A stretch of 52,906 bases of DNA, taken from a bacterium. GTDB taxonomy: Bacteria; Patescibacteriota; Minisyncoccia; CAIUEV01. Position numbers and translations under genes: made by a program. Positions 18,111-36,099 of this stretch are shown piece after piece. The stretch lies in the NCBI GenBank assembly GCA_021779915.1, contig JAJXZR010000044.1:1-52906 (forward strand), written 5' to 3'. Under the pieces are notes generated by a model, which saw only the letters and a program-made list of their open reading frames with translations, made no database searches and was not told the origin of the DNA. Each line of letters opens with the position of its first letter. Position 1 is the stretch's first letter.

Positions 18111-20723
18111 GTGGACATGGACAAAAAAAGAAAAACAAACTTTGGGCGCTTTTTAAGTTGGCAGAAGGCTTTGGTCTTTTTGTTGTTTTTTCTTTTTATC
18201 GTCCCGACCGCTTCTGCCGATTCAATTACTCCCAACACTTCAAGCGGGGGGTGGACTCGCACCCTTCAAACCCCTGGCAATGACCAATTGATCGGTCTAA
18301 ATTACAGTCTTAGAACTCTTTTGTGGACTTCCGGAGTTGTTTTGGAATCGGCTCAAAGCATTTTAACTCGTGTTTCGGATATTAGTTTTTATCAACAGCA
18401 ATTAGGTGGTTTCTATACTAAAAAAGAAACAGGGGCAAGTTCAAGTAGCAGTGCCCAAGGAGGGTGGAATGTGGTAAAAACCATTTGTAACATATCGGTG
18501 ATAATTTTGTTGTTGTTTATTGCTTTTGGAACTATTTTGAGAGTGGAAAGTTACAACTATAAATATTTATTAGTTAAATTGATTGTTGTCGCTCTTCTAA
18601 TTAATTTTAGTGGTGTTATTGCGGGGATAGTCCTGGATTTCAGCCATATTATTATGGGGATATTCTCAGATAAAATAACTAATATCGGACTAATTATTCA
18701 GAAAAATTCTAAGATTTTAGATGAATACGTTGCCAATACCGATTTAAGCGACATTGGACAAGTAACCAACAACTTGAGCGACAACATTACAAGAACCATT
18801 TCCAGAGTTAACGTCAATATGATTTTAGCATCCGTTTTAATGTTTATTTTGGGCATAACCGTTCTTGCGGTTGCTGTTTTTCTAATCGTGAGGACAGTCA
18901 GTCTTTGGCTTCTTTTCACCCTTTCTCCAGTGGCGCTGGCACTGGCGGTTCTTCCTCACACCAGGGTAACCAGTTTGAAATGGTGGGATGCCTTTCTTAA
19001 AAACGCTTTTGCCGGACCCTTGCTGTTTTTCTTCCTTTATTTGACTCTTTTTATTACAAACAATCTTAATATTCCTTCTGAAACCGCTGTCGCCGGAAAC
19101 GATAAATTTATTCTTTTTTCCAATTCAGGAACTTTTCTCCAATATATCTTTCTGGTTGTTCTTCTTTGGGCTAGCATTTTTCTCTCCCGATCTCTCTCGG
19201 TTGCCGGATCAGTCCAAGTAGTTGGTTATTTTAGAGATTTGGGCAGAGGAGAAAGAGGGATGCAAATTGTCAACAAGATTGTTGATTCTGGAGGGACGGC
19301 TCTTGGTAAAACTGGAGCAGGCAAAATACTTCATGAATGGACGGGAGCCCCCTTGCAAATCAAAGAAGGAGCTAATGCCCCCTTCGCGCCAACCGAAGCA
19401 GAGAAAGGGAAAAGAGGTTTTCAACCTGTGCTTAAAACCCAGAGTGACGCGACTCAAAAAGCTCTCAAAACCCTACTTAACCCCTCCGCCATTGGGAGGG
19501 TCCTTTCTATTGTTGATTCCAAAAGAAAAGGAGAAAACCTTTCAAAAATCGGAGGGAATCTTACTGATGCTGCCAAACTTGCCGCCATGAGTACAAAAGA
19601 TCCGGGAGAATTTCTGCGAACCCTATGGAAAAGATTTGAACCAAAATCAAAACCCACCGGTAGTTTTTGGAAAGACGCCAAGACTCTCAATGAAACAATT
19701 AATAAGGAAGTTGAAGGCCAAATGACGGTTAGGAGAGTATTTAATGAGATAGGTGTTCACAATCAAAAACTGGTAGACTTTCAAGCCAAGGACAGTAGCG
19801 AAAAAGAGGCTCAGATCTACAAGCTCGCTTGGACGGGCGGTCTTCCGGAGTATTTTAACAAACAGTTGAAAAAGCCCTATAACCCCCAAGAATTAGGAGA
19901 GCATATCAAAACCACCTTTGGAGAAGCAAAAGGAGGACAAGTGGCCGAAAAGCTTCAATCCATTGGGGAAATGAAAAAAGATCCAAGTCTTGCCGTAGCA
20001 GCATGGAACGGCAAAAAAGAAAAATTTGAAGTCGACGCAAAGGCTCTTGGGCAAAAACCGGCTACTGCCGTTGTGAAACCGGAAGATTTGAAAAAACTGG
20101 CTCCTCAAAGTATTCTCAATAAAAATGAACAGGGTTCTTATGTGGGATTCAATGATTTTGGCAAGCAGTTGCTTAAGGAAATGTCAGGAGAATATCTGAA
20201 AGAAATCGGCAATATGCGAGAAGATACAGTTAAGGCTATGGCCCAGGCATACGGAGCTTCCCAAAAGGATCTAGTCAAGGAACTTTCCAAGGGCATAAAA
20301 GGTGGTGGGACTGTTCAAGCTGATACAATCAAAGCTATCGGCAAGGCTCAGATGAGAGGAGCTTTTCACGTTGAAGAAGTACAGGCTCCCCACGCACAGA
20401 TTAGTTTGGGGCAAGAATTCTTGAACAAGGTTGCCAGCCGTGCTTTTGCCGGAAAAAGAGTTTCTACGGGCAAATTAAAAGTAGCTGATGCCAGTGAAAA
20501 ACCCAAGGCTTCTTCTTCGGATACTGGAATGATTCAAACTCCTGAACAAAGAAGGGTTCAGGAAGAATACGAGACCAGAGCCTTTGCTTCAAAACGTGTC
20601 AAAACTGGAAATGTCGAAGTGGCCTCAATAGAAGATGAAACCGGAGAAGATACCAGCCTTAAAGATAAGCAGAAATTCTTGATGATGGGTGGGAAGAATA
20701 TGACAGTGGAAGAAGGAGCGTAG
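18111..20723 (+). CDS. Polytopic membrane protein, VirB6/TrbL-like, with long soluble tail
   Basis: 870 residues. Residues 1-37 are a signal or first membrane helix (KALVFLLFFLFIVPTASA). Further helices lie at about 122-142, 150-180, 233-262, 264-282, 297-316 and 343-360. The conserved-looking WLLFTLSPVALALAVLP and KWWDAFLKNAF segments resemble TrbL/VirB6 channel proteins of type IV secretion systems. Residues ~375-870 are hydrophilic and probably cytoplasmic or periplasmic, with a repeated RAFAGKRV/RAFASKRV motif near the end. It heads the plus-strand locus containing three VirB2-like pilin fusions, which supports a secretion- or pilus-related role. The VirB6 assignment rests on topology and context only. 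The start could also be the ATG at 18117. Confidence 0.7.
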   Translation: MDMDKKRKTNFGRFLSWQKALVFLLFFLFIVPTASADSITPNTSSGGWTRTLQTPGNDQLIGLNYSLRTLLWTSGVVLESAQSILTRVSDISFYQQQLGGFYTKKETGASSSSSAQGGWNVVKTICNISVIILLLFIAFGTILRVESYNYKYLLVKLIVVALLINFSGVIAGIVLDFSHIIMGIFSDKITNIGLIIQKNSKILDEYVANTDLSDIGQVTNNLSDNITRTISRVNVNMILASVLMFILGITVLAVAVFLIVRTVSLWLLFTLSPVALALAVLPHTRVTSLKWWDAFLKNAFAGPLLFFFLYLTLFITNNLNIPSETAVAGNDKFILFSNSGTFLQYIFLVVLLWASIFLSRSLSVAGSVQVVGYFRDLGRGERGMQIVNKIVDSGGTALGKTGAGKILHEWTGAPLQIKEGANAPFAPTEAEKGKRGFQPVLKTQSDATQKALKTLLNPSAIGRVLSIVDSKRKGENLSKIGGNLTDAAKLAAMSTKDPGEFLRTLWKRFEPKSKPTGSFWKDAKTLNETINKEVEGQMTVRRVFNEIGVHNQKLVDFQAKDSSEKEAQIYKLAWTGGLPEYFNKQLKKPYNPQELGEHIKTTFGEAKGGQVAEKLQSIGEMKKDPSLAVAAWNGKKEKFEVDAKALGQKPATAVVKPEDLKKLAPQSILNKNEQGSYVGFNDFGKQLLKEMSGEYLKEIGNMREDTVKAMAQAYGASQKDLVKELSKGIKGGGTVQADTIKAIGKAQMRGAFHVEEVQAPHAQISLGQEFLNKVASRAFAGKRVSTGKLKVADASEKPKASSSDTGMIQTPEQRRVQEEYETRAFASKRVKTGNVEVASIEDETGEDTSLKDKQKFLMMGGKNMTVEEGA

Positions 20724-20841
20724 AAAATTAAAAATGTAAAAATCAAAATGAAAAATTTTTGTGTCGCCGAAGGCGACGTTTAATTGATTGTCGCCTTCGG
20801 CGACTCCACAATTTTTCATTTTGATTTTTTAATTTTTCATT
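20724..20841. repeat. Intergenic inverted repeat with GTCGCC cores
   Basis: AT-rich arms (20724-20763 and 20806-20841, AAAATCAAAATGAAAAAT and its complement) enclose two hairpins GTCGCCGAAGGCGAC and TCGCCTTCGGCGA. It lies between two same-strand genes. Confidence 0.8.
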
Positions 20842-20855
20842 ATTAAATCCTTTCT

Positions 20856-21818
20856 ATGTTAATTATCGTAAACATCCCCGCCTACAATGAAGCTAAAAAA
20901 ATTGGTACTGTCATTCGCTCTATTCCTCGAGAATTACCGGGGGGTATTAAAGTGAAAGTTCAAGTTTCTGACGATGGATCAGACGATAATACTTACGAGG
21001 TCGCAAAAGAAGCTAGTGCCGAATATGTATATAAATTTCCGCATAGAGGACTTGGGCTAACTTTTCGTTCAGGAGTAGAAAAGGCATTAGAAAGCGGAGC
21101 AGATATTATGGTTAATATCGACGCCGACGGTCAATTTTCCAAAGAGGATATTCCTAAACTAGTGGTTCCGGTAATTTCTGGCAAAGCGGACATGGTTGTT
21201 GGATCTAGGTTCTCCAAGGACAAAGAATTTAATCCGGAAGGAATACCTTTTATAAAAAGTTTTCTCAATCAGTTTGCCGCAAAAATGGTCGGCTTATTTT
21301 GGGGACAAAAGATCGATGATTTGACTTGTGGATTCAGGGCTTATAGCCGGGAGGTTTTAATGCGCCTCAATTTGAACCATCCTTTTACGTACACCCAGGA
21401 AACAATTCTGGACGCCCTTTCAAAAAACTTTCGAATCATCTGGATACCGGTAAGAGTCACCTATTTTGCCAAGAGAAAGTCGAGAATGGCTGGGAATGTT
21501 TGGCAGTTTGTTTTTAAGTCAACCAGAATAATCGTCAAAGTTCTGCGTGACACCAAACCATTAAAATTCTTTGGGATACCCGCACTTTTTTTGATTTTTA
21601 TTTCATTTTTGATTTATGGCATTTTTCTAATTGATTATATCCAAACATTAAAAGTAACTCCTTACCGCACCTGGTTGATTTTTGCAAGCGTTCTTCTGAT
21701 TCTGGGCATTCAACTTCTCATTTTTGCCTTGATTGCTGATATGATAAGAAGTCAAAGACAAGTGAGTGAGGAAAACTTGTATCTGATTAGGAAGGAGAAG
21801 TATGATGGAAAGAAATAA
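20856..21818 (+). CDS. Family 2 glycosyltransferase, polyprenyl-phosphate type
   Basis: 320 residues. The GT-A domain (1-230) shows IPAYNEAKKIG, VSDDGSDDNT, HRGLGLTFRSGVEKAL and the DxD-type metal motif NIDADGQF near residue 90, followed by MVVGSRF, as in DPM1-like enzymes that load a sugar onto polyprenyl phosphate. Two C-terminal transmembrane helices (about 243-263 and 275-298) anchor it to the membrane. Likely role: supply of lipid-linked sugar for envelope glycans or surface-protein glycosylation. Its place next to the pilin-fusion genes makes glycosylation of those proteins an attractive but unproven idea. Confidence 0.9.
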   Translation: MLIIVNIPAYNEAKKIGTVIRSIPRELPGGIKVKVQVSDDGSDDNTYEVAKEASAEYVYKFPHRGLGLTFRSGVEKALESGADIMVNIDADGQFSKEDIPKLVVPVISGKADMVVGSRFSKDKEFNPEGIPFIKSFLNQFAAKMVGLFWGQKIDDLTCGFRAYSREVLMRLNLNHPFTYTQETILDALSKNFRIIWIPVRVTYFAKRKSRMAGNVWQFVFKSTRIIVKVLRDTKPLKFFGIPALFLIFISFLIYGIFLIDYIQTLKVTPYRTWLIFASVLLILGIQLLIFALIADMIRSQRQVSEENLYLIRKEKYDGKK

Positions 21819-21834
21819 AGTTTTATAAAAAATC

Positions 21835-22026
21835 ATGAATAACCTCGCCTTTGGTTTCCAAATTGCGATTTTGTTTTCCGGATGTATAATAGGTGGAATA
21901 TGGTTAGGGCGCTACGTGGATAGTGTTTTTTACCTTACGCCCCTGGGAATTATCTCGGGTATGTTGCTAGGAACGGGGCTAGCTTTTGTTGCCATTTTAA
22001 AAATACTGAAAAAAAAGATAAAATAA
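21835..22026 (+). CDS. AtpZ/AtpI-like small membrane protein
   Basis: 63 residues with two membrane helices (FQIAILFSGCIIGGIWLG and LGIISGMLLGTGLAFVAIL) joined by GRYVDSVFYLTP, the pattern of AtpZ/AtpI proteins that sit at the head of ATP synthase operons and may help c-ring assembly or Mg2+ uptake. No atp genes are visible nearby, so the context is unusual. It starts 16 nt after the glycosyltransferase and ends 15 nt before the first pilin fusion, so the genes are probably co-transcribed. Confidence 0.65.
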   Translation: MNNLAFGFQIAILFSGCIIGGIWLGRYVDSVFYLTPLGIISGMLLGTGLAFVAILKILKKKIK

Positions 22027-22041
22027 ATAAATTTTTAAAAA

Positions 22042-24483
22042 ATGGAAACGATAAATACAAATTTGATAACAAATTCCGATGCCGTCGTCAGTTGTTCCGG
22101 AAGCTCTTGCAATTTCTGTTCTTTTTTAGAAACTTTGAGCGGCATCTACAATTTTTTTCTCTTGACGATTTTTGTAGTTGCGATTCTTATTTTGATTCTT
22201 TCTGGAATAAATTATATTTTGAATAAAGGGGTAACGGAAAGTCAGAAAAAAAATCAGCAACGGATTAAATCCACGTTATTGGGATTTGTTTTAGTTCTTC
22301 TTGGCTGGCTTATTATCAACACCACTTATCGGGTTTTAGGATATCAGAACGCGGGAAATTGGTACCAATTTAAATGCAATCTTGAAGCTCCTCAAGTTCC
22401 AAAAATCGAGACTAATTTTAGTGCTTACTATCAAAACTTAAAAGTTTACAAAGAACTTGCCGATTTTCTAACCTCCGGAGACCAAAAAGCTACAATTAAA
22501 GGTCCAACCCTCTCTCCGGTTCTTCAAAAACAACTTCAAGATTTGACCGAAGGAGAAATTCTTCACATTCTTGCTCCTGCTCGCGTTTCCTCTTCCACAA
22601 CGCCCGGAGAATATACAGATCTTTTTCTGCCCCTTTTAACGGTTTCAAAGGACGGGAATCAAGTCAAACTAGATAGCTTGGGAGACTATACTAACCTTAT
22701 TCAAAATGAATATTCTCAGTCGGACAAAACCAACACTACCCTCAATACTCTTCTGGAAACCACTTCTGGAAACAAAGATACAATTCCTATTACCGCAAGC
22801 GGAAACCAGCTTCAATCCAGTGATTTTAACAACATTTACGGTCAAATTGCAGAAATCATAAAGAATCAACAGCCCGGTACCGATAAAAGTCTTAGCGGTC
22901 AACTGGCCGTCACTGCAAATAATAAGTCTAATGAGGATGTACAGAGGATAATCGCCATATTAGTGAGCGAGACTATGAAAACAACTGATCTTTTGATGCT
23001 GGAAAAAGAAGATTCCGTGAACGTTCTTAGTGATTCACAGGTCAGATGCCAGCTTTCAGGAGGGCAGTGGATTGATAATAATTGCAAATGTCCAAACGAC
23101 ACTACTCTTGTAAAAGATGTTTGCAAAAAGAAAAATGATTTGAAGGCTAAATGCGAACGAAGCCAAGGGGTTTGGACTTTAATAAAAAACGGTTATTCAC
23201 CGACTATTTCCTGTGGATACATTGAAAATCAATTAGGTACAAACCCTAATATTGGAGATTCTTATCAAAGAGCCAATATTTCAGATGTAAACACCGACGA
23301 AAGTTATTGCAAATGCCCCACTGGCACCTGTATTGACAGTGACGGAACCTGTCAGAAGCAAGAAGAAGATTCGGACAACGATAAGATTCCTAACGCTAAA
23401 GATAAATGTCCAAACACTTCCAAAGAAGATATTTCTCAAATAAATACCACGGAGGGAAGCCAATATTATGGTTGCTCTTGCAATGATATAGGCGTCCAGA
23501 CCAAAGTCTGCCCGCCCGATCAATGTTTAGGAGATTATAAAGTGACTTACCCAAAAGGATTAAAAACTTGCAACAAGGGAATTACTGAAACTTACTCCTG
23601 TAGCCCTTCCGGTCAAACTTACGATCCACTTTGTGCTAATCAGAATATGTTGGCAAACAGCAATAACAACCAAAACAAAAAAGCTAACTCAAATGGAAAA
23701 GGATCGGATAATAAAAATATCAATGATGATTTTTTTGGCAAAAATAGCAAGGGGAAAGATATTGGGGAAAACAAGCTAGGTCCTCCGGGAGGAAACGCCA
23801 TGTACAGCAAGCCAGAGGGAGTAAAAGCGGCTCTAAAGAGAATCCACGACACCGATCCGCTTCGCTATGAAATGATTTTCCGCTATGTTTCAACTATCGC
23901 ACCAACCAGCTTTTCTGGGGGACTTTGTTACGGTTGCGGATATGAAGAAGTAAACTACGGGTTGCCGGTGAAAATGTTAGATCAAGTGATCGTCCATGAA
24001 TCTACCCATTCAGGCCATTTCTGCTGGGGTATGAGTGAAACAACCGCTGAAGTTGAAAGGATCGCGGTTGGTAATGAAATAGGAAGTCTCGAGAGATCCA
24101 AAAAAGACGATAAAGGAAGAAACGTCAACGACATGCAAGAGTTTACTCGGCAATCAAAAGAAATTACCTATGAAAGTTCGCCTGCTAGGGGCTATCTCAG
24201 CCGTTTTATGCCTGAAGATAATCCCAAAGGAGATTTAATCGCAGAAGATTATCATTGGGCGATTTCCTATGCATTAAGCTATGGAGACAATACCAAAGGA
24301 CCGAATCATCACGGCTGGCCTCAAAAAGGATACCTTCTTGGTCTCAAAGACAGCGAACAACAGATTGTAGATAAGATAATTAAGAATATGGAAAGTTTCC
24401 CCTGCAGGTCCAAACCACCAAGCGACCTCCCCGAAATACCCGCCTGTAAAGACGCCCCGGAAATTAAGTTGGGAGGAAAATAG
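22042..24483 (+). CDS. VirB2-like pilin domain fused to Cys-rich region and HExxH peptidase-like domain
   Basis: 813 residues. Residues ~20-110 match the T4SS_pilin pattern: CNFCSFLETLSGIYNFF, two membrane helices, and a basic cytoplasmic loop (ESQKKNQQRIKSTLLG). Then comes a region shared with the two paralogs downstream (about 155-325), two CxxSxGxW-type Cys modules (about 335-450), a thrombospondin-3-like acidic repeat (DSDNDKIPNAKDKCPN, near 443) and an Asn-rich linker (535-565). The C-terminal domain carries H652-E653-S-T-H656, with Glu candidates for a third zinc ligand at 666, 670 and 672. It is probably a membrane-anchored extracellular metallopeptidase; activity is inferred from the motif only. 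Confidence 0.8.
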   Translation: METINTNLITNSDAVVSCSGSSCNFCSFLETLSGIYNFFLLTIFVVAILILILSGINYILNKGVTESQKKNQQRIKSTLLGFVLVLLGWLIINTTYRVLGYQNAGNWYQFKCNLEAPQVPKIETNFSAYYQNLKVYKELADFLTSGDQKATIKGPTLSPVLQKQLQDLTEGEILHILAPARVSSSTTPGEYTDLFLPLLTVSKDGNQVKLDSLGDYTNLIQNEYSQSDKTNTTLNTLLETTSGNKDTIPITASGNQLQSSDFNNIYGQIAEIIKNQQPGTDKSLSGQLAVTANNKSNEDVQRIIAILVSETMKTTDLLMLEKEDSVNVLSDSQVRCQLSGGQWIDNNCKCPNDTTLVKDVCKKKNDLKAKCERSQGVWTLIKNGYSPTISCGYIENQLGTNPNIGDSYQRANISDVNTDESYCKCPTGTCIDSDGTCQKQEEDSDNDKIPNAKDKCPNTSKEDISQINTTEGSQYYGCSCNDIGVQTKVCPPDQCLGDYKVTYPKGLKTCNKGITETYSCSPSGQTYDPLCANQNMLANSNNNQNKKANSNGKGSDNKNINDDFFGKNSKGKDIGENKLGPPGGNAMYSKPEGVKAALKRIHDTDPLRYEMIFRYVSTIAPTSFSGGLCYGCGYEEVNYGLPVKMLDQVIVHESTHSGHFCWGMSETTAEVERIAVGNEIGSLERSKKDDKGRNVNDMQEFTRQSKEITYESSPARGYLSRFMPEDNPKGDLIAEDYHWAISYALSYGDNTKGPNHHGWPQKGYLLGLKDSEQQIVDKIIKNMESFPCRSKPPSDLPEIPACKDAPEIKLGGK

Positions 24484-24515
24484 GTTCGTTAAGAGCTTGC
24501 CATCCCATGTTTAGT

Positions 24516-24676
24516 GTGTCATCCCGGGCTTGACCCGGGATCCAGGAGGATAGTGTTAGTCTAATAAAATGTTCTTTTGTTTAGTTTTTTACAAATACAC
24601 ACCAAAATAACATTCTGTTAGTCTAACTGGATCCCTGGTCCCTGCCTGCCGGTAGGCAAGAAGCCCGGGATGACAC
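24516..24676. mobile_element. REPIN/MITE-like element, copy F (161 bp, short type)
   Basis: Ends GTGTCATCCCGGGCTTGACC and its inverted form. The interior read on the minus strand matches copy E at 14605 (TTAGACTAAC..., AAAAAACTAAAC..., CTATCCTCC). The right hairpin is enlarged by a small CCTGCCTGCCGGTAGGCA insertion. It separates the first and second pilin-fusion genes. Confidence 0.85.
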
Positions 24677-24737
24677 GAGAAAAAATAATTTTATCCAAAA
24701 AACATAAATAATATTCTAAATTCTTAAAAACTTAACA

Positions 24738-27700
24738 ATGAAAAAAAACTACCTATCCCTCCTCCCCATCTCTATCGCCCATGCTGCCACTTCAGGTGGA
24801 ATATGGGACTTGCGGGCTTTTGATTTTGCGGGTCTTTCTGTAAAATCTCCAGGGGGAATACTTCTGTTTTTTGTCAGTTGGTCAATTTCTATAATAGGCC
24901 TTTTGGGGATTATTGCCTTCATTTATGCCGGGTACACATATCTTGTTGCCGGCAATGATGCTGATAAAGCAGAGCAAACAAAGAAAATTATTCTTTACTC
25001 GGTTATCGGAATTATTGTTTCCATTTTAGGTCTAGCAACCATAAAAACCGTCAGCGATCTTATGGATAGTCACAAAAATACCAATGAGAATATAGCGGGT
25101 CGAATTTCTCCTTCCACCCAATCTATTTCGGAGCTAGTATCAAATTCTCAAAACACTGGGCAAGTTAGCGCCGTTATCCCAAAAAATACTTCTCTGGAAG
25201 AAATCCAAAAAGCTCTTCAGGATTTACCGGAAGGAAAAACTATCTCTTTTACTGCATCCTCATCTGAAGGAGCCTTTACAGTTCTCACTTTTAAGAAAGA
25301 AAACGGTCAAGTTAACCTTGTTTATATTGACAATGACAGATTGAAAGGTTTGTCTAAAAGTACCAATGACAACCAATCATCCTATTTTGACTCTTTGATT
25401 AAAACTGCGAAAGCAGATGATTTACTCACTTCCGGAACTCTCAGCAAAGATCAGCTTGTATCGGTTTTAACCTCTCTTTTAAATCTTCTACAGTCCAATG
25501 ATAACAATGTTATCACAATGATCACCGACCCTTACGTCAATGATTTTTCAAGCCCTTTTAGCTTTTCTGAGACTGTCTCCAGATGTATCTCTACCGGAGG
25601 AATTTGGTATAGGTTCACCAATTCCTGCACCGCGCAAAACAGCCGATGCAACAGTACTACAAACAGCAATTGTTCTACATTAGGAATTAATCCGGTTGAA
25701 AGTTGTCAATGCGCCGATGGAGAATGCACTGACAGAACAGGAAATTGCGTTGCTATTTCTAATACCAACTCAAATACTAACACCAATACAAATACCAATA
25801 CTAACTCATCTTATTCAGATTCGAGCTCGGATAATCCCTGCTTTAATGCCACTTTATGTACTAATTATGGAGGATATTGGAACGGCTCTAATCAAAGCAA
25901 TATTGAATGTCGTTGTCTTTCACTTCCTTTGTCTAACGTAAATACTAACACAAACTCATGGTCAGGCTCTAGAGAAAATTATTACAAGGGTTTGTGTGAA
26001 AATTCCGGAGGAACATGGGATAATTCTTGGTTCAATAATGGCCCTAGATTATTCTCTGACGGAACCAACCAATGTTCCTGCAGTTGTAATGGATGTTCCT
26101 GCTGGGGGACAGATCAAGCTCAAATTTCCGATTCAAGTGCATTGCAAACCGTAGTCAACAGCACTGGCGCAGCTGATTACCTTTCCCAATGCAGCACAAA
26201 CTTCTACTTCAATCCAAATATAAGCCGTAATTTTTTTGGTGGATTTCATTTTCCAGGTAAAAAACATGGCACATGCACCTGCTCCACAGGAAAAGTGCTT
26301 GATGGTTATGGAAAATGCGTTGACACAAGTAATAATACCGAGGTAAGCGCCTGTACCAACTCAGGTGGGGCTTGGACTTTGCTTTCCGGATGCTGTGGAA
26401 GAGAAAAACAAAAATGCGGATCGGATAATTTAATCTGTTCCTGCTTGTTTGATTCTCCTCAAGTTTTGGGATGTGCGTGTCCGGATGGACAATGTGTTGA
26501 CGGAAATGGGCAGTGTAAATCGAAGGATTCCACTTCCGAGAAAATAACTTGTGAGAATTCCGGAGGAACTTGGATAGCACAAGGTGGTAATGGTTGGGTA
26601 AGACATATATGCCATTGTCCAGATGGAAAATATTTGGATTCGAGTTCAAACGGGAAATGCACTGACACAACCTTTCCAACATCTTCTTGCCATGGAAAAG
26701 TCGACATTGGAAAGATGCTTGGACAAGCTAGTTGGGCTTCTTGTATTGACATAGACACATTAAAGTCCAATTGTACTTCAAGCAACGGACAATGGATGAA
26801 TTATGGGCAAGGTTATCATGCAATGTACAATTATTCCCATGATTATCCAAGTAATTTTTGCGGAAAATCTACCTCGGCATTTTATAAACAAGAAAATTGT
26901 GACGGACCAGATGGTCCCTGCTCCTCACAAACTTATCCTTGGTTAGGATGCAGGTGTCCCGGGAGCCAATGTCTTGACAGCCAGGGAAAATGCACAGGAA
27001 ACATTGGAGATGATACCACTTTCACCGACTGTAAATCGGATTATCAATGTTTTTACAAAATACTCTCAGGAGGTGGACAAGCAAAACTAACTATTTCCGA
27101 AATGAATTATTTCCGTGGCTCTCGAATCAAAGAAACCAGCGAAATAAGGGGGATTCCCAACGGAAGCGGTTTTGATGTGACTATGACAGTTCTAAATTTG
27201 GAAAGAATGGATCAAAATAAAAGTCTTGCAAGTGGAGTTATCTCTGATGACACGCTAAATCAGTGTCCGAACTTATTAAATAATCTGTACCAAATCGAAG
27301 GTAAAAGTACAACTTGCAAAACTGGCGGAACCACGACGGACTGTGGCGCAAGCGCAATAGCCGTCTGCACACCTAGTATATCCACCGCCATGACGGGAGT
27401 TCGTTATTTAGTTCAAAATGGACTAACTAATTCAAATATTACGAACTATTCTTGTCAAGGAAATCTTATTACCAAAATGAAAGAGATTTGTGGAACACCT
27501 AACTTTCCAGAAGGACCAGTCGCTTTTAAACCGGCTATCTATCTTTACCCTCAAAGAAATATAGAGGTAGGTGTTACTCTTGGTATTAACGGAGAAATAA
27601 TAAAAAGCGATCCTGAATACCCTCAAAACGGTTGGAAAGTGAAGGCAACACCCAGTAGTTTAATAGACGGCAAATATGATTATTTGTTCTATGAGAATAC

Positions 27701-28055
27701 CTTGAATAAATTAGATCTTCCTAAAGAGGGTTGGGTTGTTAAAAAAGAAGATCTAAATCAATGGTTTAATGATAATTTGCAAAAATTAGGATTGAACGAG
27801 AAGGAAAGTGCACAATTCAAGGAATATTGGTTGGGAGTTCTAAACAAGGCTAATTATTATGAAATAAAGCTTCTGAGTGATCAATATTTGAAAGAAAATA
27901 TGAATCTAAAAATTAGTCCTCAGCCAGACACAGTTATCCGTCGAAATTTCTATTTCAAACCACTGCAAGAAAAAACAGACCTAAAAGAACCGATTATTAT
28001 TACCCCGGAAAGAAAAGGATTCACAGTAGTAGAATGGGGAGGAATAATGGATTAA
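24738..28055 (+). CDS. Giant VirB2-like pilin fusion with Cys-rich modular ectodomain
   Basis: 1105 residues. The N-terminal segment (to about 112) has two membrane helices around YLVAGNDADKAEQTKKIILYSVIG, a VirB2/TrbC-like pilin pattern. Residues 145-275 form a domain shared with the gene at 28094. An Asn/Thr linker (about 340-358) is followed by repeated Cys modules of the form C-x2-SGG-x-W ... C-x-C-P-x-G-x-C-x-D-x2-G-x-C through about 750. The last ~175 residues start KPAIYLYPQRNIEVGVTL and are Cys-free; they are absent from both paralogs and look like a separate beta-rich domain. Predicted: membrane-anchored, mostly extracellular, possibly an adhesin. No catalytic motif seen. There is no Shine-Dalgarno. 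Confidence 0.8.
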   Translation: MKKNYLSLLPISIAHAATSGGIWDLRAFDFAGLSVKSPGGILLFFVSWSISIIGLLGIIAFIYAGYTYLVAGNDADKAEQTKKIILYSVIGIIVSILGLATIKTVSDLMDSHKNTNENIAGRISPSTQSISELVSNSQNTGQVSAVIPKNTSLEEIQKALQDLPEGKTISFTASSSEGAFTVLTFKKENGQVNLVYIDNDRLKGLSKSTNDNQSSYFDSLIKTAKADDLLTSGTLSKDQLVSVLTSLLNLLQSNDNNVITMITDPYVNDFSSPFSFSETVSRCISTGGIWYRFTNSCTAQNSRCNSTTNSNCSTLGINPVESCQCADGECTDRTGNCVAISNTNSNTNTNTNTNTNSSYSDSSSDNPCFNATLCTNYGGYWNGSNQSNIECRCLSLPLSNVNTNTNSWSGSRENYYKGLCENSGGTWDNSWFNNGPRLFSDGTNQCSCSCNGCSCWGTDQAQISDSSALQTVVNSTGAADYLSQCSTNFYFNPNISRNFFGGFHFPGKKHGTCTCSTGKVLDGYGKCVDTSNNTEVSACTNSGGAWTLLSGCCGREKQKCGSDNLICSCLFDSPQVLGCACPDGQCVDGNGQCKSKDSTSEKITCENSGGTWIAQGGNGWVRHICHCPDGKYLDSSSNGKCTDTTFPTSSCHGKVDIGKMLGQASWASCIDIDTLKSNCTSSNGQWMNYGQGYHAMYNYSHDYPSNFCGKSTSAFYKQENCDGPDGPCSSQTYPWLGCRCPGSQCLDSQGKCTGNIGDDTTFTDCKSDYQCFYKILSGGGQAKLTISEMNYFRGSRIKETSEIRGIPNGSGFDVTMTVLNLERMDQNKSLASGVISDDTLNQCPNLLNNLYQIEGKSTTCKTGGTTTDCGASAIAVCTPSISTAMTGVRYLVQNGLTNSNITNYSCQGNLITKMKEICGTPNFPEGPVAFKPAIYLYPQRNIEVGVTLGINGEIIKSDPEYPQNGWKVKATPSSLIDGKYDYLFYENTLNKLDLPKEGWVVKKEDLNQWFNDNLQKLGLNEKESAQFKEYWLGVLNKANYYEIKLLSDQYLKENMNLKISPQPDTVIRRNFYFKPLQEKTDLKEPIIITPERKGFTVVEWGGIMD

Positions 28056-28093
28056 AAAAATAATTTAATATTTTAAAAATTAAAAAACAAAAA

Positions 28094-29914
28094 ATGAAAA
28101 AGAGCAAAAATATCGATTCCCCCATTATGCCTGTTTACGCCACTGTTTCAGGAGGGGGTTGGAATTCGGATTCATTAGGTGGATTCGGGCTTTCGGGAAG
28201 ATCTGTGTCAGAAATACTTCTTTCCTTTATTGATTGGTCAATAATAATGATTGGTTTAATTGGGATAATTGCTTTCATTTACGCAGGATATACTTATCTA
28301 ACTGCTGGGGGAGAGAAAGATAAAATAGAACAAGCTAAGAAAATAGTGGTTTATGGAATTGTAGGTGTTGTCGTTTCGGTCTTGGGATTAGTAGCAGTCA
28401 CAACCGTTAACAATATTATGGGGGGAGGAAAAAATCAAACTGCCAGTATTCCCGTACAATCAATCAGTGTTTTGGTAGAAAATTCAAAACAGAAAAAGAC
28501 ATCGCAGGCAATCTTGCCACAAAGCACTTCTGCAAAAGAGCTAGAAACCGCTCTCAATAACTTGTCTGAAGGAGAAATAATCTCTTTCTCTTCCTCTGAT
28601 CGTTCAGGAAAGGATGCAGGAGAAATAGTGACTTTTAAAAAGGAACAAGGAAAAATTAAATTAATCAAAATTGATCAAAAAAAGATTCAGGATTTAATAG
28701 GAAGAAAAGCTTCTTTCAATTTAATTCCAAGTGTTTTTGCCTCGATTTCAGCCCCTCCAGGAGATAATTGTGTTATTAACTCAAGTGGCGATGGATGGGA
28801 TTGTCCCGATTCTCCGATTGTTGATGCTACAACAATAAACAGTCTTTCAATTGAAGAATTAAGACAAATATTGTCCTTTATCATAGCAATAATTCAAACC
28901 AGACAACCCGTGATTTCAATAATAGATAATCCTTTAGGTACTGGAAACGGAGATCCAATCCAAGATCCTTGTCAAAGTCAAAGTACTTGTGAAGAAATGG
29001 GTGGCGTTTGGGGAGCAAATAATAATTTCCAGACTGTTAAAGTGGATACTGGGAATGGCACTGCAGCCACTAGCGGTAATTGTCAATGTACTTTTCCTGA
29101 TTCGTCTCCGACGACAATAAATGGCTCGGAACAACAAAATTGCGAAAATTCCGGTGGGAGATGGATGGATGCTATTGATGCACCTATGTATTCCTATTGT
29201 GCTTGTCCAGGCGATTCGGAAGCAAGTAAGGCTCCACATGAAAGAAAAACTTATCCAAAGAGTTGTAATCCTGAGCCTACCGGTAATAGTGGCACACCAA
29301 CGACAGCGAATAGCAAAAAATGTTTGGCTTCTGGGGGAGACTGGATTCAATTTGCAAATTATACCGTAGCTAATCAAGCAAAATGCGACAATCCTTCTGC
29401 CGGGGTAATCAAACTATGGGATCCTGTTTATGATTGTCAATGCCCAACTGGTCAGTGTGTAGATAAAGACGGAGGATGTACGAGTGAAGGAGCTACTGAT
29501 ATACCAAAAGATGAAAAACTTGCCTGCACGAGTACTGGTGGAACGTGGGATGACAGAACAGATGTTCACATTTGTCTTTGTCCAACAGGTACTTTTATGA
29601 GCAATGGTTATTGCATTTCAGGAGAAGTTCCTGGGACTATTAACAAAAAACCTGGTATGGACAAGCCAAAAACTGATACAGGGGATGTAAATTCAACCAA
29701 TTCTTGTAAAAATCAAACCGTGTGCGAATCGGAGGGAGGATATTGGATAAATAATAATATGCCTCATTATAATGATGGCAATTGCCGTTGTTTGTTTCCT
29801 GGCGATGATTGTTTAAGTAAAAGAAATTGTGAAGCTGCAGGCAAACTCTGGAGAGAGAATTCAGCTACTGCAACTACAACAGACCCATGCTCGTGTGTTT
29901 TTGGAATGGAGTAA
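28094..29914 (+). CDS. VirB2-like pilin fusion with Cys-rich ectodomain, shorter paralog
   Basis: 606 residues starting 38 nt after the previous gene. It keeps the same order: SGGGWNSDSLGGFGLSGRSV, two helices around YLTAGGEKDKIEQAKKIVVYGIVG (about 38-108), the shared domain (ILPQSTSAKELETALNNL to about 215), an IxDNP segment, then at least five C...GGxW Cys modules to the C-terminus (CSCVFGME). It lacks the C-terminal domains of its two paralogs, so these genes look like one anchored scaffold with different tips. Tandem duplication is the simplest origin. Confidence 0.8.
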   Translation: MKKSKNIDSPIMPVYATVSGGGWNSDSLGGFGLSGRSVSEILLSFIDWSIIMIGLIGIIAFIYAGYTYLTAGGEKDKIEQAKKIVVYGIVGVVVSVLGLVAVTTVNNIMGGGKNQTASIPVQSISVLVENSKQKKTSQAILPQSTSAKELETALNNLSEGEIISFSSSDRSGKDAGEIVTFKKEQGKIKLIKIDQKKIQDLIGRKASFNLIPSVFASISAPPGDNCVINSSGDGWDCPDSPIVDATTINSLSIEELRQILSFIIAIIQTRQPVISIIDNPLGTGNGDPIQDPCQSQSTCEEMGGVWGANNNFQTVKVDTGNGTAATSGNCQCTFPDSSPTTINGSEQQNCENSGGRWMDAIDAPMYSYCACPGDSEASKAPHERKTYPKSCNPEPTGNSGTPTTANSKKCLASGGDWIQFANYTVANQAKCDNPSAGVIKLWDPVYDCQCPTGQCVDKDGGCTSEGATDIPKDEKLACTSTGGTWDDRTDVHICLCPTGTFMSNGYCISGEVPGTINKKPGMDKPKTDTGDVNSTNSCKNQTVCESEGGYWINNNMPHYNDGNCRCLFPGDDCLSKRNCEAAGKLWRENSATATTTDPCSCVFGME

Positions 29915-30002: not shown

Positions 30003-31541
30003 TTATTTCTTCACCGTCTTCTTCTCACTAACCCAAAAGCTCCCGAAGTATTTCCCCAGCATCAGTCGGGTCATAGCGTCCATAGCAGGAGTGGCGGTCA
30101 TTACGATGGAAACAAGTGGAACCAACAGGGACTGGAGTCCGAAAGCGATATTTTTAAACCAGCTGTAGTGTTTGGGACGGCGAGGGATGATGAAGAAGGA
30201 TAAAATGGCGGAGGAAATGATTCCGGTCATGGCTAGCCTCATCAAAAACTGAGTAATGAGAGGTAAATTATGAGCTAATACCATTTCATTAAAATTGGCT
30301 CCTCCAACCATAAGAGGCAACCATCCCATAAAAAGGAGCATAAAAGAAGTTGTTCCCCACGAAACTCTTCCTTCTAGCATAGTAAAAATGATGCTGAATC
30401 TTGATGACAAAGGAATTTTACAATCTTTATTTAAGAATACTCGCAGAAGCCTTGGGAAACTCTCTACTCCATAAGCCCAGCGACGAAGCTGTTTGTATTG
30501 GTTAATCAGAGTTTTTTTAAGATTATCCGTCAAAGTGGCATCCATCGAAACTGGTAAGAAGAGAGGTACAGTGCGGTAATCCCCATCATATTTGGAATAG
30601 CACTGCCAAAAAATAGCTGAGTCCTCTGAAATAATATCGTTCTGCCACATTCCAACGTCCAGAAGGGCAACTAAGCTCATTGAGTGGGAAGAAAAAGTGA
30701 CCAGCCGCTCGTGGCGAACGCTTTCAATCATATGCCAAAAAGACGTTCCGAGAGAAATAATCCGGACAACCGCATTAGTGTCCCAAATATTATTGTTAAA
30801 CATCGGAAGGGGTTGATAGCTAGATCTGTAGCGGTTCTCATTTGTAATATAGTTATAAGTTACCGCACCAAAATATTCTTTGTGCACTCTTGTATCGCAA
30901 TCAAAATTAGAGACTACCACTTGCTCGTGTTTGATATTTTTTTGTTTTAGAAAATCTAATGCATTTCGAAGTGCCCAATTGGCGTTTCCACTTTTTGCCT
31001 TCATTTCTCCCGGAAGATTATCTGGATGAACAGCTGTAAGGAATCCGGCAAATTGTTTGCCGTATTTTTCTTTTAAAGAATATTGATTTTGATTAGCTTC
31101 TTCCCCTGCCCTTTTTTCACAAGACATAGAAACAATTATTCGATCTTTGGGATAATTTGATTCAATAAAACTCAAGATAGTCGGTTCCAGAATTTCTAGT
31201 CCTTCGCTGACGTAGGGAAGAATAATCAAATGATAGACCGAACCCAGGTTTAGATCATATTTGCCACTAATTTTTTTACACTTTCGGAGCCAATTGATTT
31301 TCTGATTTTTTTTCAGTTTTCGATAAGCAATTATTGTTAGAAAACTTAGAACAATCACCCGAGTCAACCAAAAAAGATCGTAAAAAATAATAAATACGGC
31401 CGCCCAGATCGGTTCAAAAAAAGAAAGAGCTATTCCAAGGACTAAAACCCCCCAACAAAGAGCCCCCGGGATAATTTCTCCAATACGTTGAATTTTCCTT
31501 TGTCTTGAATCGTCGGTTTTTTGACGGGGAAAAATAACCAT
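30003..31541 (-). CDS. Processive-type membrane glycosyltransferase, GT2
   Basis: 512 residues from the ATG at 31541; a TTG at 31580 would add 13 hydrophobic residues. Two N-terminal helices (about 25-70) precede a GT-A domain with SNFDCDTRV (DxD), the ISEDSAIFW acidic motif and QLRRWAYG, the Q-x-x-R-W signature of cellulose/hyaluronan-synthase-like processive GT2 enzymes. Four or five C-terminal helices follow. It probably polymerises or exports a surface polysaccharide at the membrane. It is convergent with the last pilin-fusion gene. No partner biosynthesis genes are adjacent, so the product cannot be named. Confidence 0.85.
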   Translation of the reverse strand: MVIFPRQKTDDSRQRKIQRIGEIIPGALCWGVLVLGIALSFFEPIWAAVFIIFYDLFWLTRVIVLSFLTIIAYRKLKKNQKINWLRKCKKISGKYDLNLGSVYHLIILPYVSEGLEILEPTILSFIESNYPKDRIIVSMSCEKRAGEEANQNQYSLKEKYGKQFAGFLTAVHPDNLPGEMKAKSGNANWALRNALDFLKQKNIKHEQVVVSNFDCDTRVHKEYFGAVTYNYITNENRYRSSYQPLPMFNNNIWDTNAVVRIISLGTSFWHMIESVRHERLVTFSSHSMSLVALLDVGMWQNDIISEDSAIFWQCYSKYDGDYRTVPLFLPVSMDATLTDNLKKTLINQYKQLRRWAYGVESFPRLLRVFLNKDCKIPLSSRFSIIFTMLEGRVSWGTTSFMLLFMGWLPLMVGGANFNEMVLAHNLPLITQFLMRLAMTGIISSAILSFFIIPRRPKHYSWFKNIAFGLQSLLVPLVSIVMTATPAMDAMTRLMLGKYFGSFWVSEKKTVKK

Positions 31542-31636
31542 AATGGTCTTTATGAGAAAGAAAAAAATAAAAAAACACAACTGAGCTTGTATTACTTGGA
31601 TTTATAGCACTGAAAAAAGAGAAAGTACAGAAAGGT

Positions 31637-32308: not shown

Positions 32309-33059
32309 CATTTTCCCTTACATTGCTGTAGGATTGGACTATACCATCACCCTGAACCATACTAGGTTTAGGGGGCCGACGTGTTATCCTGATTTTAAAA
32401 ATCAGAATCTGTTACTAGATTTTAATCTAGTAACAAGTCTCTACGGGGTTATTAAGCCTTCTTTTCTAAGAGTTTTTTTGACTTCTTTAGTCAAAATTTT
32501 TCTCTTTTTTGAATAGTTCAACAATCGATACTCGTCTACTAAAGCGCATATTTTTAGAAAATCATCGGCGTTTTTTACTTCTTTTTTATATTTTAAGATT
32601 TTTCCCATCAGCTTTAACTGTTTTTTCTTCAGTTTACTGTAGGGCAACACCATTTCAATGAATTCTATTTGAGATTTTTCGTCTCCCAAAATAAATTCAG
32701 AAATGCCGTCTTTTCTTTTTCTTAAATAGCCACAACCAAATTTTTTTTGAATTTCTTCTAAAAATTGATTCTTAATTTGGCTTTGATAAAAAGAAATATA
32801 AGCACTTACTTGATATCTAAATTTATAACTTTTATTCTTAGTGAGTTTGACATAAACACTGCCATCTCCATCAAGAAATCCAGCTATATAGGCTTTTTCG
32901 ACTTCGGAAAAACTATTCATTTTAAAAAGGCTTAAAACTTCCCTCGGGATTATCCTAACATACGACAGTTTAACTGTCCAATTGGTCCGATATTGTTAGG
33001 ACTTCCCCGATATGAGTCAGCTTTTCATTAGAAATTACTTTCTAATGCCGCCGTATTTG
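32309..33059 (-). other. Group I intron in 23S rRNA (site ~L2593)
   Basis: The rRNA reads GTTCAAACCGT | intron | CGTGAGACAGG, matching the E. coli segment after about U2593 when joined. The 5' exon CCGU can pair with ACGG just inside the intron (P1 with a U-G pair at the splice site), and the last intron base is G. Core-like segments GTAGAGACT, CACGTCGGC and TATAGTCC (R/S-type elements) lie in the 3' part. The length is 751 nt with a LAGLIDADG gene inside. The site is in the peptidyl-transferase region, so splicing should be needed for ribosome function. Confidence 0.85.
32441..32920 (-). CDS. LAGLIDADG homing endonuclease (intron-encoded)
   Basis: 159 residues with one LAGLIDADG motif, YIAGFLDGDGSV (residues 11-22), so it should act as a homodimer. 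The length and the Lys-rich body fit the single-motif family. It lies wholly inside the group I intron on the same strand as the rRNA and would cut intron-less 23S alleles to spread the intron; a maturase role is also possible. The ORF is intact and the catalytic Asp (D19) is present, so the element may be active. Confidence 0.93.
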   Translation of the reverse strand: MNSFSEVEKAYIAGFLDGDGSVYVKLTKNKSYKFRYQVSAYISFYQSQIKNQFLEEIQKKFGCGYLRKRKDGISEFILGDEKSQIEFIEMVLPYSKLKKKQLKLMGKILKYKKEVKNADDFLKICALVDEYRLLNYSKKRKILTKEVKKTLRKEGLITP

Positions 33060-33105
33060 ACGGTTTGAACCCAGCTCGCGTACCACTTTAATTGGCGAAC
33101 AGCCA

Positions 33106-33156
<51 letters not shown>

Positions 33157-33707
33157 AGCGAACACCCCCGTCTATTTGGGCTATTGGGGGGTACCACTCT
33201 GTTATCCCCGGAGTAACTTTTATCTGCTGAGCTTTGGCGCGTCTACACGCAACCATCGGATCACTAAATCCCGCTTTCGCGACTGCGCGACGTATAGGTC
33301 TTGCAGTAAAGCTGGCTTATGCTTTTGCACTATCTCCCGGATTTCCATCCCGGGATAGCCAACCTTTGAACACCTCCGTTACATTTTAGGAGGTGAGCGC
33401 CCCACTCAAACTACCCACCAGACACTGTCCTCGAACCAGTACTTTTGGTCCGAAGTTAGAAACGTATACGATAAAGGGTGGTATTTCACTTTTGACTCCA
33501 TCCCAACCAAAATCGGGACTTCAAAGTCTCCCACCTATTCTAAGCATCAAAGCACACGCTTCAATGTCAAGCTGTAGTAAAGCTTCACGGGGTCTTTCCG
33601 TCTAGCCGTGGGTAAGCAGCATCTTCACTGCTAATGCAATTTCGCCGGGTCCCTCCTTGAGACAGTCTCCAAATCGTTACCCCATTCGTGCAGGTCTGAA
33701 TTTACCA

Positions 33708-33752
<45 letters not shown>

Positions 33753-33923
33753 GTCCACTGGCGCTTCGGGGATTGGCTTGCACCTTTCCCGTTAACGTTC
33801 CAGCACTGGTCAGGGGTCAGCTCCTATACATCCCCTTGCGGGTTAGCAGGAAACTGTGTTTTTGTTAAACAGTCGCTTGGAGTCTTTAGCTGCGGCCGAC
33901 GCCTAAAGAGACTGGGAAATAGG

Positions 33924-34353
33924 GGGAAGAATCATTTCTTCCCGAAGTTTTGATGGTCTATAATTCTTTTTTGGGTACAAAGGCTGTTGCCCTTGTTTTT
34001 TTGCCATTTTTAATTATTACAATGGCATCTAAGGGATATTTTTCAGAATTTTCTTCTGAATGATTATTGGCTATGCAATTTGTGCAACTCCAAGGAATCT
34101 CATTAATCATGTGCTTTCGAGCGCAAGCCCTACAAAGAGTAACTTTGAAATTTGCGTTGTTAATTGCACTCTTAAAAAGATTCAGGAAGTTTTCCTCGGA
34201 CATTGGACATAATATTTTGTCCATATCCGGCTGAACTTCTCCTAGAATTGCGACAGTCCTTCTTGAACCATCGTTTTCATCTACATAGCTCTCAATCCTT
34301 ACCTTGTTGACAACCAAAATATAACCTCCAAAATTATAAGAATTTCACTTTGT
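33924..34353 (-). other. Helix-63-region insertion in 23S (IVS-like, 430 nt)
   Basis: The insert is framed by complementary rRNA arms GAGACTGGGAAATAGG (33908-33923) and CCTATTTCCCAGCTCTC (34354-34370), so it sits at the tip of a stem in the E. coli ~1700-1750 region. Inside are a second pairing (CTTATAATT/AATTATAG), a hairpin GGGAAGAA/TTCTTCCC and a 119-aa ORF. I find no group I core, so an intervening sequence cut out without ligation, or a retained expansion, is more likely than an intron. Confidence 0.7.
33958..34317 (-). CDS. Unknown 119-aa protein inside 23S insertion, zinc-ribbon-like Cys pairs
   Basis: TTG start at 34317 with a strong Shine-Dalgarno (GGAGG, 34325-34329, 7-nt spacing), stop at 33958, in the rRNA sense orientation. 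The product has two CxxC knuckles (CRAC and CTNC, about 15 residues apart), a lone Cys earlier (ILCPMS) and a basic C-terminus (KNGKKTRATAFVPKK), consistent with a small zinc-binding nucleic-acid protein. It has no LAGLIDADG, HNH or GIY-YIG motif and does not look like the S23/IVP four-helix proteins known from other rRNA intervening sequences. Function unknown. Confidence 0.65.
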   Translation of the reverse strand: MVVNKVRIESYVDENDGSRRTVAILGEVQPDMDKILCPMSEENFLNLFKSAINNANFKVTLCRACARKHMINEIPWSCTNCIANNHSEENSEKYPLDAIVIIKNGKKTRATAFVPKKEL

Positions 34354-34930
34354 CCTATTTCCCAGCTCTCTAGGGTCGGCAGGCCTTATCCCGAAGTTAC
34401 GACCGCTGTCTTGCCGAGTTCCTTAAGGAGGGTTCTCCCGTTCACCTGAGGCTACTCGCCTCGCCCACCTGTGTCGGTTTTAAGTACGGATGCCCATTAC
34501 CATCATAGAAGCTTTTCCTGGAAGCTTGCTCATTTTCGTTCGGTCGGCTTGCGCCTTCCTTCCCTTCCTACCTCGGAATTGTGCTCTTGGGATTTGCCTC
34601 AAGAACTTCCTCGATAGAAAGACACTAATCCAATAAAGCGCGAAAACTACAAAACTCCGTCACTCCTTAGCAAAGTAATAGGCAGGGCAGGAATATTAAC
34701 CTGCTGTCCATCGACTACGCCTTTCGGCCTCGCCTTAGGGCCGCCTAAACCTGAGCTGATTGACATCGCTCAGGAAACCTTGGGCTTACGGTGTACCGGG
34801 ATTTAACCGGTATTGCGGCTACTCATGCCTACATTCTCTCTTCTTTACACTCCACTGGACCTCACGATCCAGCTTCAACGCATAAAGAATGCTCTCCTAC
34901 CACCCCGTGTTTCGCTACCGCTCACCACGG

Positions 34931-35100
34931 GAATTTCCAATTTCCAATTTCCAATTTCCAATCAATTTCACAATTTACAATGATTTAATTTTCAAAAAAA
35001 ATATAGTTTGAAATTATTTCATTGAGTCATTGTCGCCATAGGCGACCCGCCTAAGGCGGGAAAATTCATTGAAAACTGAAAATTGAAAATTGAAAATTCC
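34931..35100 (-). other. Repeat-rich insertion near helix 45 of 23S
   Basis: About 170 nt inserted between CACCACGGG and CCGTGTTG, close to the helix 45 region, a known site of rRNA intervening sequences in other bacteria. The left side has four 7-bp AATTTCC units and the right side matching GAAAATT units, so the ends can pair over a long AT-rich stem. The middle holds GTCGCC/GGCGAC and CCCGCC/GGCGGG hairpins like those of the intergenic repeats in this window. No ORF. Confidence 0.7.
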
Positions 35101-35726
35101 GTGTTGAACATTAGTGAAACACGGGATCCACGGATTCGGTATTACGCTTAGCCCCGTTATATTTTAGGCGCAAAACTCCTTAGGCTAGTGAGCTATTACG
35201 CACTCTTTAAATGAATGGCTGCTTCTAAGCCAACATCCTAGCTGTTTTCGGAATTTCACATCCTTTACCACTAAGCGTTCCTCTTGCGCCACAAGGACAC
35301 AAGAAGATCTCTGTTTCTAAAGAAACAAAGAAAATTTAGGGACCTTAACCGGTGGTCTGGGTTGTTCCCCTTTTGTCTATGAAGCTTAGCCCTCACAGAC
35401 TGACTCGTTAGCCTAGATTTTAAGAATTCGGAGTTTGGTTGAATAGACTAGGCCGAAGCCACGCCTACTCATTCAGTAGCTCTACCTCTTAAAAGAAATA
35501 ACTAACGGCTATCCCAAGAGATATTTCGGAGAGAACCAGCTATTACCGAGCTCGATTGGAATTTCTCCTCTAACCACAAATCATCCCGGAGTTTTGCACA
35601 GCTCGTGGGTTCGGGCCTCCGCATGGTGTTACCCATACTTCACCCTGTTCATGGTTAGCTCGCCCGGTTTCGGGTTTATTTCGTACGACTAATTTCGCCG
35701 GTTAAGACTCGCTTTCGCTACGGCTC

Positions 35727-35837
35727 CCCCCGCTCCACTTTCAAGTAAAATCTTACTTTATAGAATATACGTGAGCGAAGCGACTTCGTCTCGATATGTT
35801 CTAATTTTTCGGATTATACCCAAAAGTAGGGCGGGGT
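35727..35837 (-). other. 23S expansion segment 1, helix 25 region
   Basis: Arms CCCCGCTCCACTTT (left) and AAAAGTAGGGCGGGG (right) enclose ~80 nt, where the E. coli rRNA is much shorter. Positions 35771-35791 are the exact reverse complement of 35939-35959 in the next expansion. Confidence 0.65.
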
Positions 35838-35891
35838 TAGCCTTGCCATACAAAATAACTCGTAGGCTCGTTCTGCAAAAAGCACGCAGTC

Positions 35892-36002
35892 ACCCCGCTC
35901 CATTTTTAATTGCAACCTGATGGACTAAGATAAAACGAAGACGAAGTCGCTTCGCTCACTTATATTTTCCAAAGTAAGACTGCAATCGAAAATGGGGCGG
36001 GG
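35892..36002 (-). other. 23S expansion segment 2 at helix 25 (IVS site)
   Basis: Arms CCCCGCTCCATTTTT and AAAATGGGGCGGGG enclose ~85 nt at the helix 25 position, the other classic site of 23S intervening sequences. It contains AGACGAAGTCGCTTCGCTCA (35939 on), complementary to expansion 1. No ORF. Confidence 0.65.
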
Positions 36003-36056
36003 CTCCTACTCATTGTAAGCATACAGTTTCAGGATCTATTTCACTCCCCTTACAGG

Positions 36057-36099
<43 letters not shown>

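Follow-up and report, generated by a model that had tools for sequence, protein, structure and literature searches.

T4SS pilin-like units joined to large ectodomains, including predicted wall hydrolases, in Patescibacteria

Three tandem proteins encoded in a 52,906-nt stretch of DNA from an ultrasmall, parasitic-type Patescibacterium (the window) begin with what their sequences identify as genuine T4SS/VirB2-like pilin units and continue into ectodomains of about 480-980 residues. We put at slightly better than even the chance that the two-helix T4SS pilin has been reused here to anchor large surface proteins in the membrane and, probably, to dock them, with their ectodomains held at the T4SS and replacing a free VirB1. 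This reading draws on pilin homology, predicted outside termini, the ectodomains themselves, linkage with virB4 and virB6 in operons, and related proteins that bear wall-lytic domains. The genome of this bacterium is 1.12 Mb in 48 contigs and 96% complete; the window is its contig C42. It was compared with three genomes of its family, G001, G002 and G003. Five ORFs lie where an earlier note on this DNA had put them, all on the plus strand, and are listed here with their domains.

18111-20723 (+): VirB6/TrbL-like polytopic membrane protein, 870 aa (PF04610 below cut-off, orthologues, virB4 neighbourhoods)
20856-21818 (+): GT2 glycosyltransferase, polyprenyl/dolichyl-phosphate type, with C-terminal TM helices (PF00535, TIGR04182, gene order)
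22042-24483 (+): 813-aa protein with a 4-Cys pilin anchor and an HExxH tip (Pfam, pilin HMM, anchor tree)
22084-22383 (+): 4-Cys anchor of 22042, in the order CxGxxCxxC, TM1, positively charged loop, TM2, WxxFxC (alignments A2, A3 and A8; positive-inside rule)
22474-22854 (+): neck domain of 22042 (weakly similar to the 24738 neck by BLAST and hhalign)
23797-24480 (+): HExxH tip domain of 22042, predicted minigluzincin-like topology (alignment of eight, AF2 model)
24738-28055 (+): array-pilin-derived anchor, neck, Cys modules and KPAIYLYP tip, 1105 aa (Pfam, pilin HMM, neck comparison, tree)
24825-25091 (+): pilin-like unit of 24738, without the 4-Cys motif (short-pilin HMM E 8.9e-18; tree)
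25119-25607 (+): neck domain of 24738 (matches 28094 at E 1e-18 and its G003 orthologue at E 9e-17)
27522-28052 (+): KPAIYLYP tip domain of 24738, matching no known family (6-row alignment)
28094-29914 (+): array-pilin-derived anchor, neck and Cys modules, no tip domain, 606 aa (Pfam, pilin HMM, neck comparison, tree)
28178-28447 (+): pilin-like unit of 28094 (short-pilin HMM E 1.9e-22; G002 array pilin)
28457-29011 (+): neck domain of 28094 (neck comparison)

The Pfam model PF18895 (T4SS_pilin) matched the whole proteins 22042, 24738 and 28094 at E values of 7e-5, 1e-5 and 2e-5, just below the gathering score. When the genome was searched frame by frame with the same model, the trio scored 28-31 bits, above the gathering score. 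As hydrophobic hairpins are able to mimic this family, we trained a separate HMM on 45 short pilins from the loci examined, chosen in part with the anchor models. It matched the three proteins at E values of 1.4e-16, 8.9e-18 and 1.9e-22. Across the ORFs of the scanned loci it recovered every one of the 62 large anchors (E<1e-3); beyond these it hit two obvious short pilins only. Each window N-terminus was also block-shuffled 300 times with its hydrophobicity profile preserved (900 shuffles in total); the native N-termini scored 62-80 bits with the short-pilin HMM versus a maximum of 26 bits for the shuffles. Because the short pilins were partly picked with the anchor models, we place the evidential weight on the shuffle control and on the Pfam model, which is independent of that choice. 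Were PF18895 detecting mere hydrophobic hairpins, the large proteins would be unrelated membrane proteins, and the Pfam scores slightly under the cut-off are in keeping with that, as are the PF18895 hits that 11 of the 14 control genomes, all unrelated, gave when E values up to 1 were admitted. The recovery of every large anchor and the distance from the shuffles argue strongly against it, as does the pilin unit of 28094, which shares 55% identity with a short G002 array pilin across 106 aa; we judge such a coincidence very improbable. The pilin-like unit that the earlier note had read in all three N-termini is borne out by the Pfam model and by the separate HMM with its shuffle control. With lengths of 606-1105 aa the trio falls outside the size of small pilins (mature about 70-100 residues), and we therefore do not class its members as ordinary pilins. 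Over the 62 anchors the loop between the helices has a mean net charge of +2.2 and its flanks -0.7, the loop exceeding both flanks in 52. This positive-inside pattern predicts that both termini of the anchor lie outside, with the signal being an average that is flat for 24738 and 28094 taken alone.

To judge from the anchor tree, built from 34 anchors, the trio mixes two lineages. There, 22042 lies inside an HExxH-only clade (support 100/95) that belongs to the 4-Cys anchors, and 24738 and 28094 are sisters (99/89) nested in short array pilins (100/98), indicating ordinary array-pilin descent. The frame search with PF18895 found 19 T4SS_pilin stretches in the window's own genome, of which nine or more lie in ORFs some 690-1110 aa long. 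The 4-Cys clade comprises 28 large proteins in the four genomes. A CxxxxCxxC motif (mostly CxGxxCxxC) precedes TM1 in 26 of the 28, and a Cys follows TM2 in all of them. Two of the four Cys are invariant and the remaining two are present in at least 90% of the 28 rows of alignment A3, which is less selected than alignment A8, where Cys conservation is partly built in as the rows were chosen by Cys pattern. Conservation of the four Cys flanking the hairpin suggests that the structure is a specific one. The 28 proteins end in SLT (seven, six by Pfam, best E 1e-11), VanY/M15 (three, all by Pfam, best E 7.5e-9), HExxH (eight) or SxGC (seven) tips, or in Cys modules only (three). The SxGC tip was considered as an L,D-transpeptidase and set aside: the resemblance is motif-like only, searches gave no YkuD-like profile, Pfam or PDB match, and its low-confidence model was unmatched. 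Two genes from one pilin-anchored VanY protein, a single 1127-aa membrane protein combines GH18, polysaccharide deacetylase and GT2 domains (L028:2755-6138, minus strand).

The earlier note had correctly described three different C-terminal ends, and proposed that such tips are swappable on a common anchor. As a general rule we reject this, since the tip labels require only six changes on the anchor tree and the trio comes from two anchor lineages. With a minimum of four changes and a shuffled mean of 16.5, anchors and tips appear to be mostly co-inherited, so that the tips would for the most part be old modules passed on with their anchor without free exchange. A possible exception is found at L081, with an SxGC-like tip within the SLT clade. 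The proposed common neck is clear for 24738 and 28094 (30% identity, E 1e-18) and weak for 22042 (E 8e-4, hhalign 91%). The neck also occurs in short Cys-only proteins (E 4e-13) and in the M15/SxGC group (hhalign 97%), and in the neck comparison it was absent from the SLT group of anchored proteins.

Of the two window tips, one keeps to the pilin anchor and one does not. The earlier note had held that C-termini occurring mostly without the anchor would tell against its model; this is what we find for the KPAIYLYP domain, with no pilin in five of five other genomes, and not for the HExxH tip, which has a pilin anchor in eight of eight proteins. The HExxH tip is known only from the protein family of 22042 itself. 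It contains HESTH followed by a Glu about 20 residues downstream, with H67, E68, H71 and E87 invariant in all eight aligned sequences. Its AF2 model (pLDDT 84.5, pTM 0.88) places backing helices, three strands, the active-site helix and the Glu helix in that order. The tip resembles the minigluzincins (selecase) in its predicted order of elements and in the invariant Glu carried by the helix after the HExxH helix, but differs from these in having no significant sequence or fold match, the top PDB matches being selecase at E 0.9. Assignment to a known peptidase family was accordingly rejected, and from the alignment and the model we consider the tip a probable, still putative, zinc peptidase. 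The KPAIYLYP tip was found in six of 55 genomes of relatives, the window copy being the one with a pilin, and its six-row alignment has 33 invariant columns. It matched no known families; PDB matches suggesting a lipocalin-like fold (E 0.01-0.03) were judged to be chance. The orthologue of 24738 in G003, a member of the same family, has a single TM in place of the pilin while keeping the neck, Cys modules and tip. Both this pilin-less orthologue and 28094 have as neighbour a conserved glycosyltransferase-like membrane protein, encoded at L037:10275-11810 (minus strand) in G003 and at 30003-31580 (minus strand) in the window.

The protein at 18111-20723 had been called VirB6/TrbL-like. The PF04610 profile matches it at E 0.001-0.002, beneath the Pfam cut-off, and the identity gains support from homologues in 30 of 40 virB4 neighbourhoods across the class (up to 19 kb). 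Its orthologues in G001-G003 are 54-60% identical. The adjacent GT2 matches PF00535 at E 3e-19 and the AglJ-like TIGR04182 at E 3e-34, under the equivalog cut-off. The earlier note had suggested looking for virB4/virD4 ATPases elsewhere in the genome, and T4SS genes do exist there: VirB4 is encoded on contig C29 and a second VirB6 paralogue on C41. That 998-aa paralogue (L185:7463-10459, minus strand) is 28% identical to the window protein, lies near dnaE and is present in G001 too (L187). All four genomes have a virB4 operon, outside the window, that ends with one or two anchor-SLT fusions (L029, L072, L078, L082). Two genes of L029, 7468-8121 ('PrgI') and 10169-10870 ('TrsD'), gave no Pfam match and carry labels from position and resemblance only. 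Gene order is kept in relatives, with virB6-GT2-HExxH in three of the four genomes (window, L080, L084); in G001, virB6-GT2 sits at a contig end and the HExxH pair is separated by 3-5 genes from two ATPases that resemble T4SS coupling proteins. Ten of the 28 anchored proteins are encoded no more than about 6 kb from virB4 or virB6, versus about 0.7 expected (binomial 1e-9), these being orthologues that amount to about two independent events.

Elsewhere in the window, a 197-aa protein (43893-44486, plus strand) consists of two tandem T4SS_pilin units and lies beside an M50 site-2-protease-like gene (44595-45797), and L035:7789-8403 encodes a double pilin much of this kind. The 23S rRNA gene (32960-36686, minus strand) spans 3727 bases versus a 2925-position model, and an insertion of about 0.8 kb is therefore likely. 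No group I intron family scored above the Rfam gathering score. Just beyond its 3' end is a LAGLIDADG-like ORF with the motif IAGFLDGDG (32441-32920, minus strand).

We also surveyed the class and phylum. Anchor matches, mostly to short pilins, were found in every one of 142 genomes from the class and in 144 of the 153 from the phylum, and VirB4 in 49 of 55 class genomes. A pilin gene, with a product of 121-872 aa, lies one to four genes downstream of virB4 in 30 of 40 neighbourhoods. This pilin is sometimes extended by SLT-like, M15-like, GH5-like or endolysin-like domains, which are probably wall-active. The assignments are SLT_2-like in L184 (E 0.009); in L164, GH5-like at E 0.005 and, by PHROG, endolysin-like at E 9e-5; and M15-like by motif only in L154 and L172; the M15-like readings of L154, L172, L108 and L103 found no confirmation in Pfam, PHROGs or PDB. 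Other anchors, distant from virB4, carry PKD and PA14 domains. In one protein (L106:6286-7563, plus strand) a 4-Cys pilin anchor is combined with a glutaredoxin-like and an NlpC/P60-type domain, and the gene after it joins an anchor to a glucosaminidase. The layout is reversed in other families (L089, L091, L093, L095, L096, L097, L101), where a C-terminal pilin stands behind large Cys-rich, beta-helix or LVIVD ectodomains.

If the pilin unit keeps the ectodomains in place at the T4SS, or at the base of its pilus, hydrolytic tips (SLT, VanY/M15 and probably HExxH) would open peptidoglycan or cut wall-linked protein locally, and this local opening by fused hydrolases would stand in for a free VirB1. 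Surface ligands may be bound by the ectodomain of 28094, which we take to be non-enzymatic, and by the KPAIYLYP tip of 24738, which probably is so too. The wall so opened could be the cell's own, the host's, or both. The recognized tips elsewhere are mostly wall-lytic enzymes, evidence that favours wall opening no less than attachment. Going further, the fused hydrolases and binding domains might be minor or tip subunits of a pilus, the machine delivering enzymes onto the host envelope during epibiosis, to which we give a rather small chance. Counted against the main reading are the non-significant fold match of the HExxH tip to a peptidase, the SxGC tip left without an assignment and the several class-wide fusion tips assigned by motif or by weak Pfam matches (E 0.005-0.009). 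The same holds for the scatter of most anchored proteins of the window's own genome away from T4SS genes, for the G003 orthologue of 24738 with one TM helix replacing the pilin and its neck and tip retained, and for the beta-helix, PKD or LVIVD domains, not enzymes, borne by anchors in other families.

The latter observations would suit a two-helix pilin co-opted as a convenient membrane anchor for surface or wall-maintenance proteins, its link to the T4SS being historical. The adhesin-like character of domains on C-terminal pilin anchors and the usual carriage of KPAIYLYP domains by single-TM anchors fit this main alternative as well. However, it does not sit easily with the conserved place of anchor-SLT in the virB4 operon and of HExxH behind virB6, with a pilin gene, at times fused, beside virB4 in most class loci, or with the four Cys flanking the hairpin, and we regard it as possible but on the unlikely side. 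In the model of the earlier note, the proteins would build a pilus-like filament, and its polymorphic tips, open to exchange, would serve to attach to a host or to attack it. Pilin homology and the short array pilins of the same genome are compatible with this. So are published results: T4SS pilins are among the highly expressed extracellular genes of archaea-parasitising Paceibacteria (PMC10936435), and epibiotic growth of Southlakia requires both its T4SS and the T4SS pilins (PMC10633639). Essentiality was found in the one Patescibacterium tested, the role of the T4SS not being established (PMC10633639, PMC11665869). We nonetheless find the filament unlikely, as tip classes track the anchor tree, the trio is of mixed descent, and ectodomains of this size would hardly pack as major subunits.

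Our preferred reading, a pilin unit that anchors and probably docks ectodomains at the T4SS, extends systems that are partly known. Patescibacterial T4SSs with VirB2-like pilins and pilin arrays are already published, and a 2025 survey reports that VirB2 pilins are widespread and VirB1 enzymes few (PMC12102498). Like the VirB2/TrbC-type pilins of Patescibacteria (PF18895, PF04956) and their arrays, the anchors have a two-helix unit, a K/R-rich inside loop and a virB4 vicinity, and 24738 and 28094 group with the array pilins on the anchor tree. Unlike them, the 28-member clade bears four conserved Cys, and the large ectodomains contrast with the about 100-200 aa of those proposed pilus builders; the parts of the survey consulted make no mention of pilin-ectodomain fusions. 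We found no description of pilin-hydrolase fusions in the open-licence PMC papers searched. As the search covered such papers only, we provisionally regard the fusions as new, T4SS pilins and arrays being known.

The locus also resembles monoderm (MPF-FATA) T4SSs with VirB4, VirB6 and TrsD-like components in having VirB4 and VirB6 homologues, syntenic across the class, but in the family of the window's genome virB6 and virB4 lie in separate contigs or loci, each beside pilin-anchored ectodomain genes. As a countable gene family, pilin-hydrolase fusions offer a way to ask whether the T4SS acts on its own or the host wall. Like the VirB1/TrsG/CD419 lytic transglycosylases, with their presumed local wall opening, an SLT domain is encoded in the virB4 operon here, but it is joined to the pilin unit within one protein. 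The survey argues that VirB2 pilus biogenesis is independent of VirB1, since most VirB2 genomes are without VirB1 (PMC12102498). For Paceibacteria, the fusions provide an alternative reading of such genomes: wall-lytic domains on pilin units beside virB4 could explain wall opening without the usual separate enzyme.
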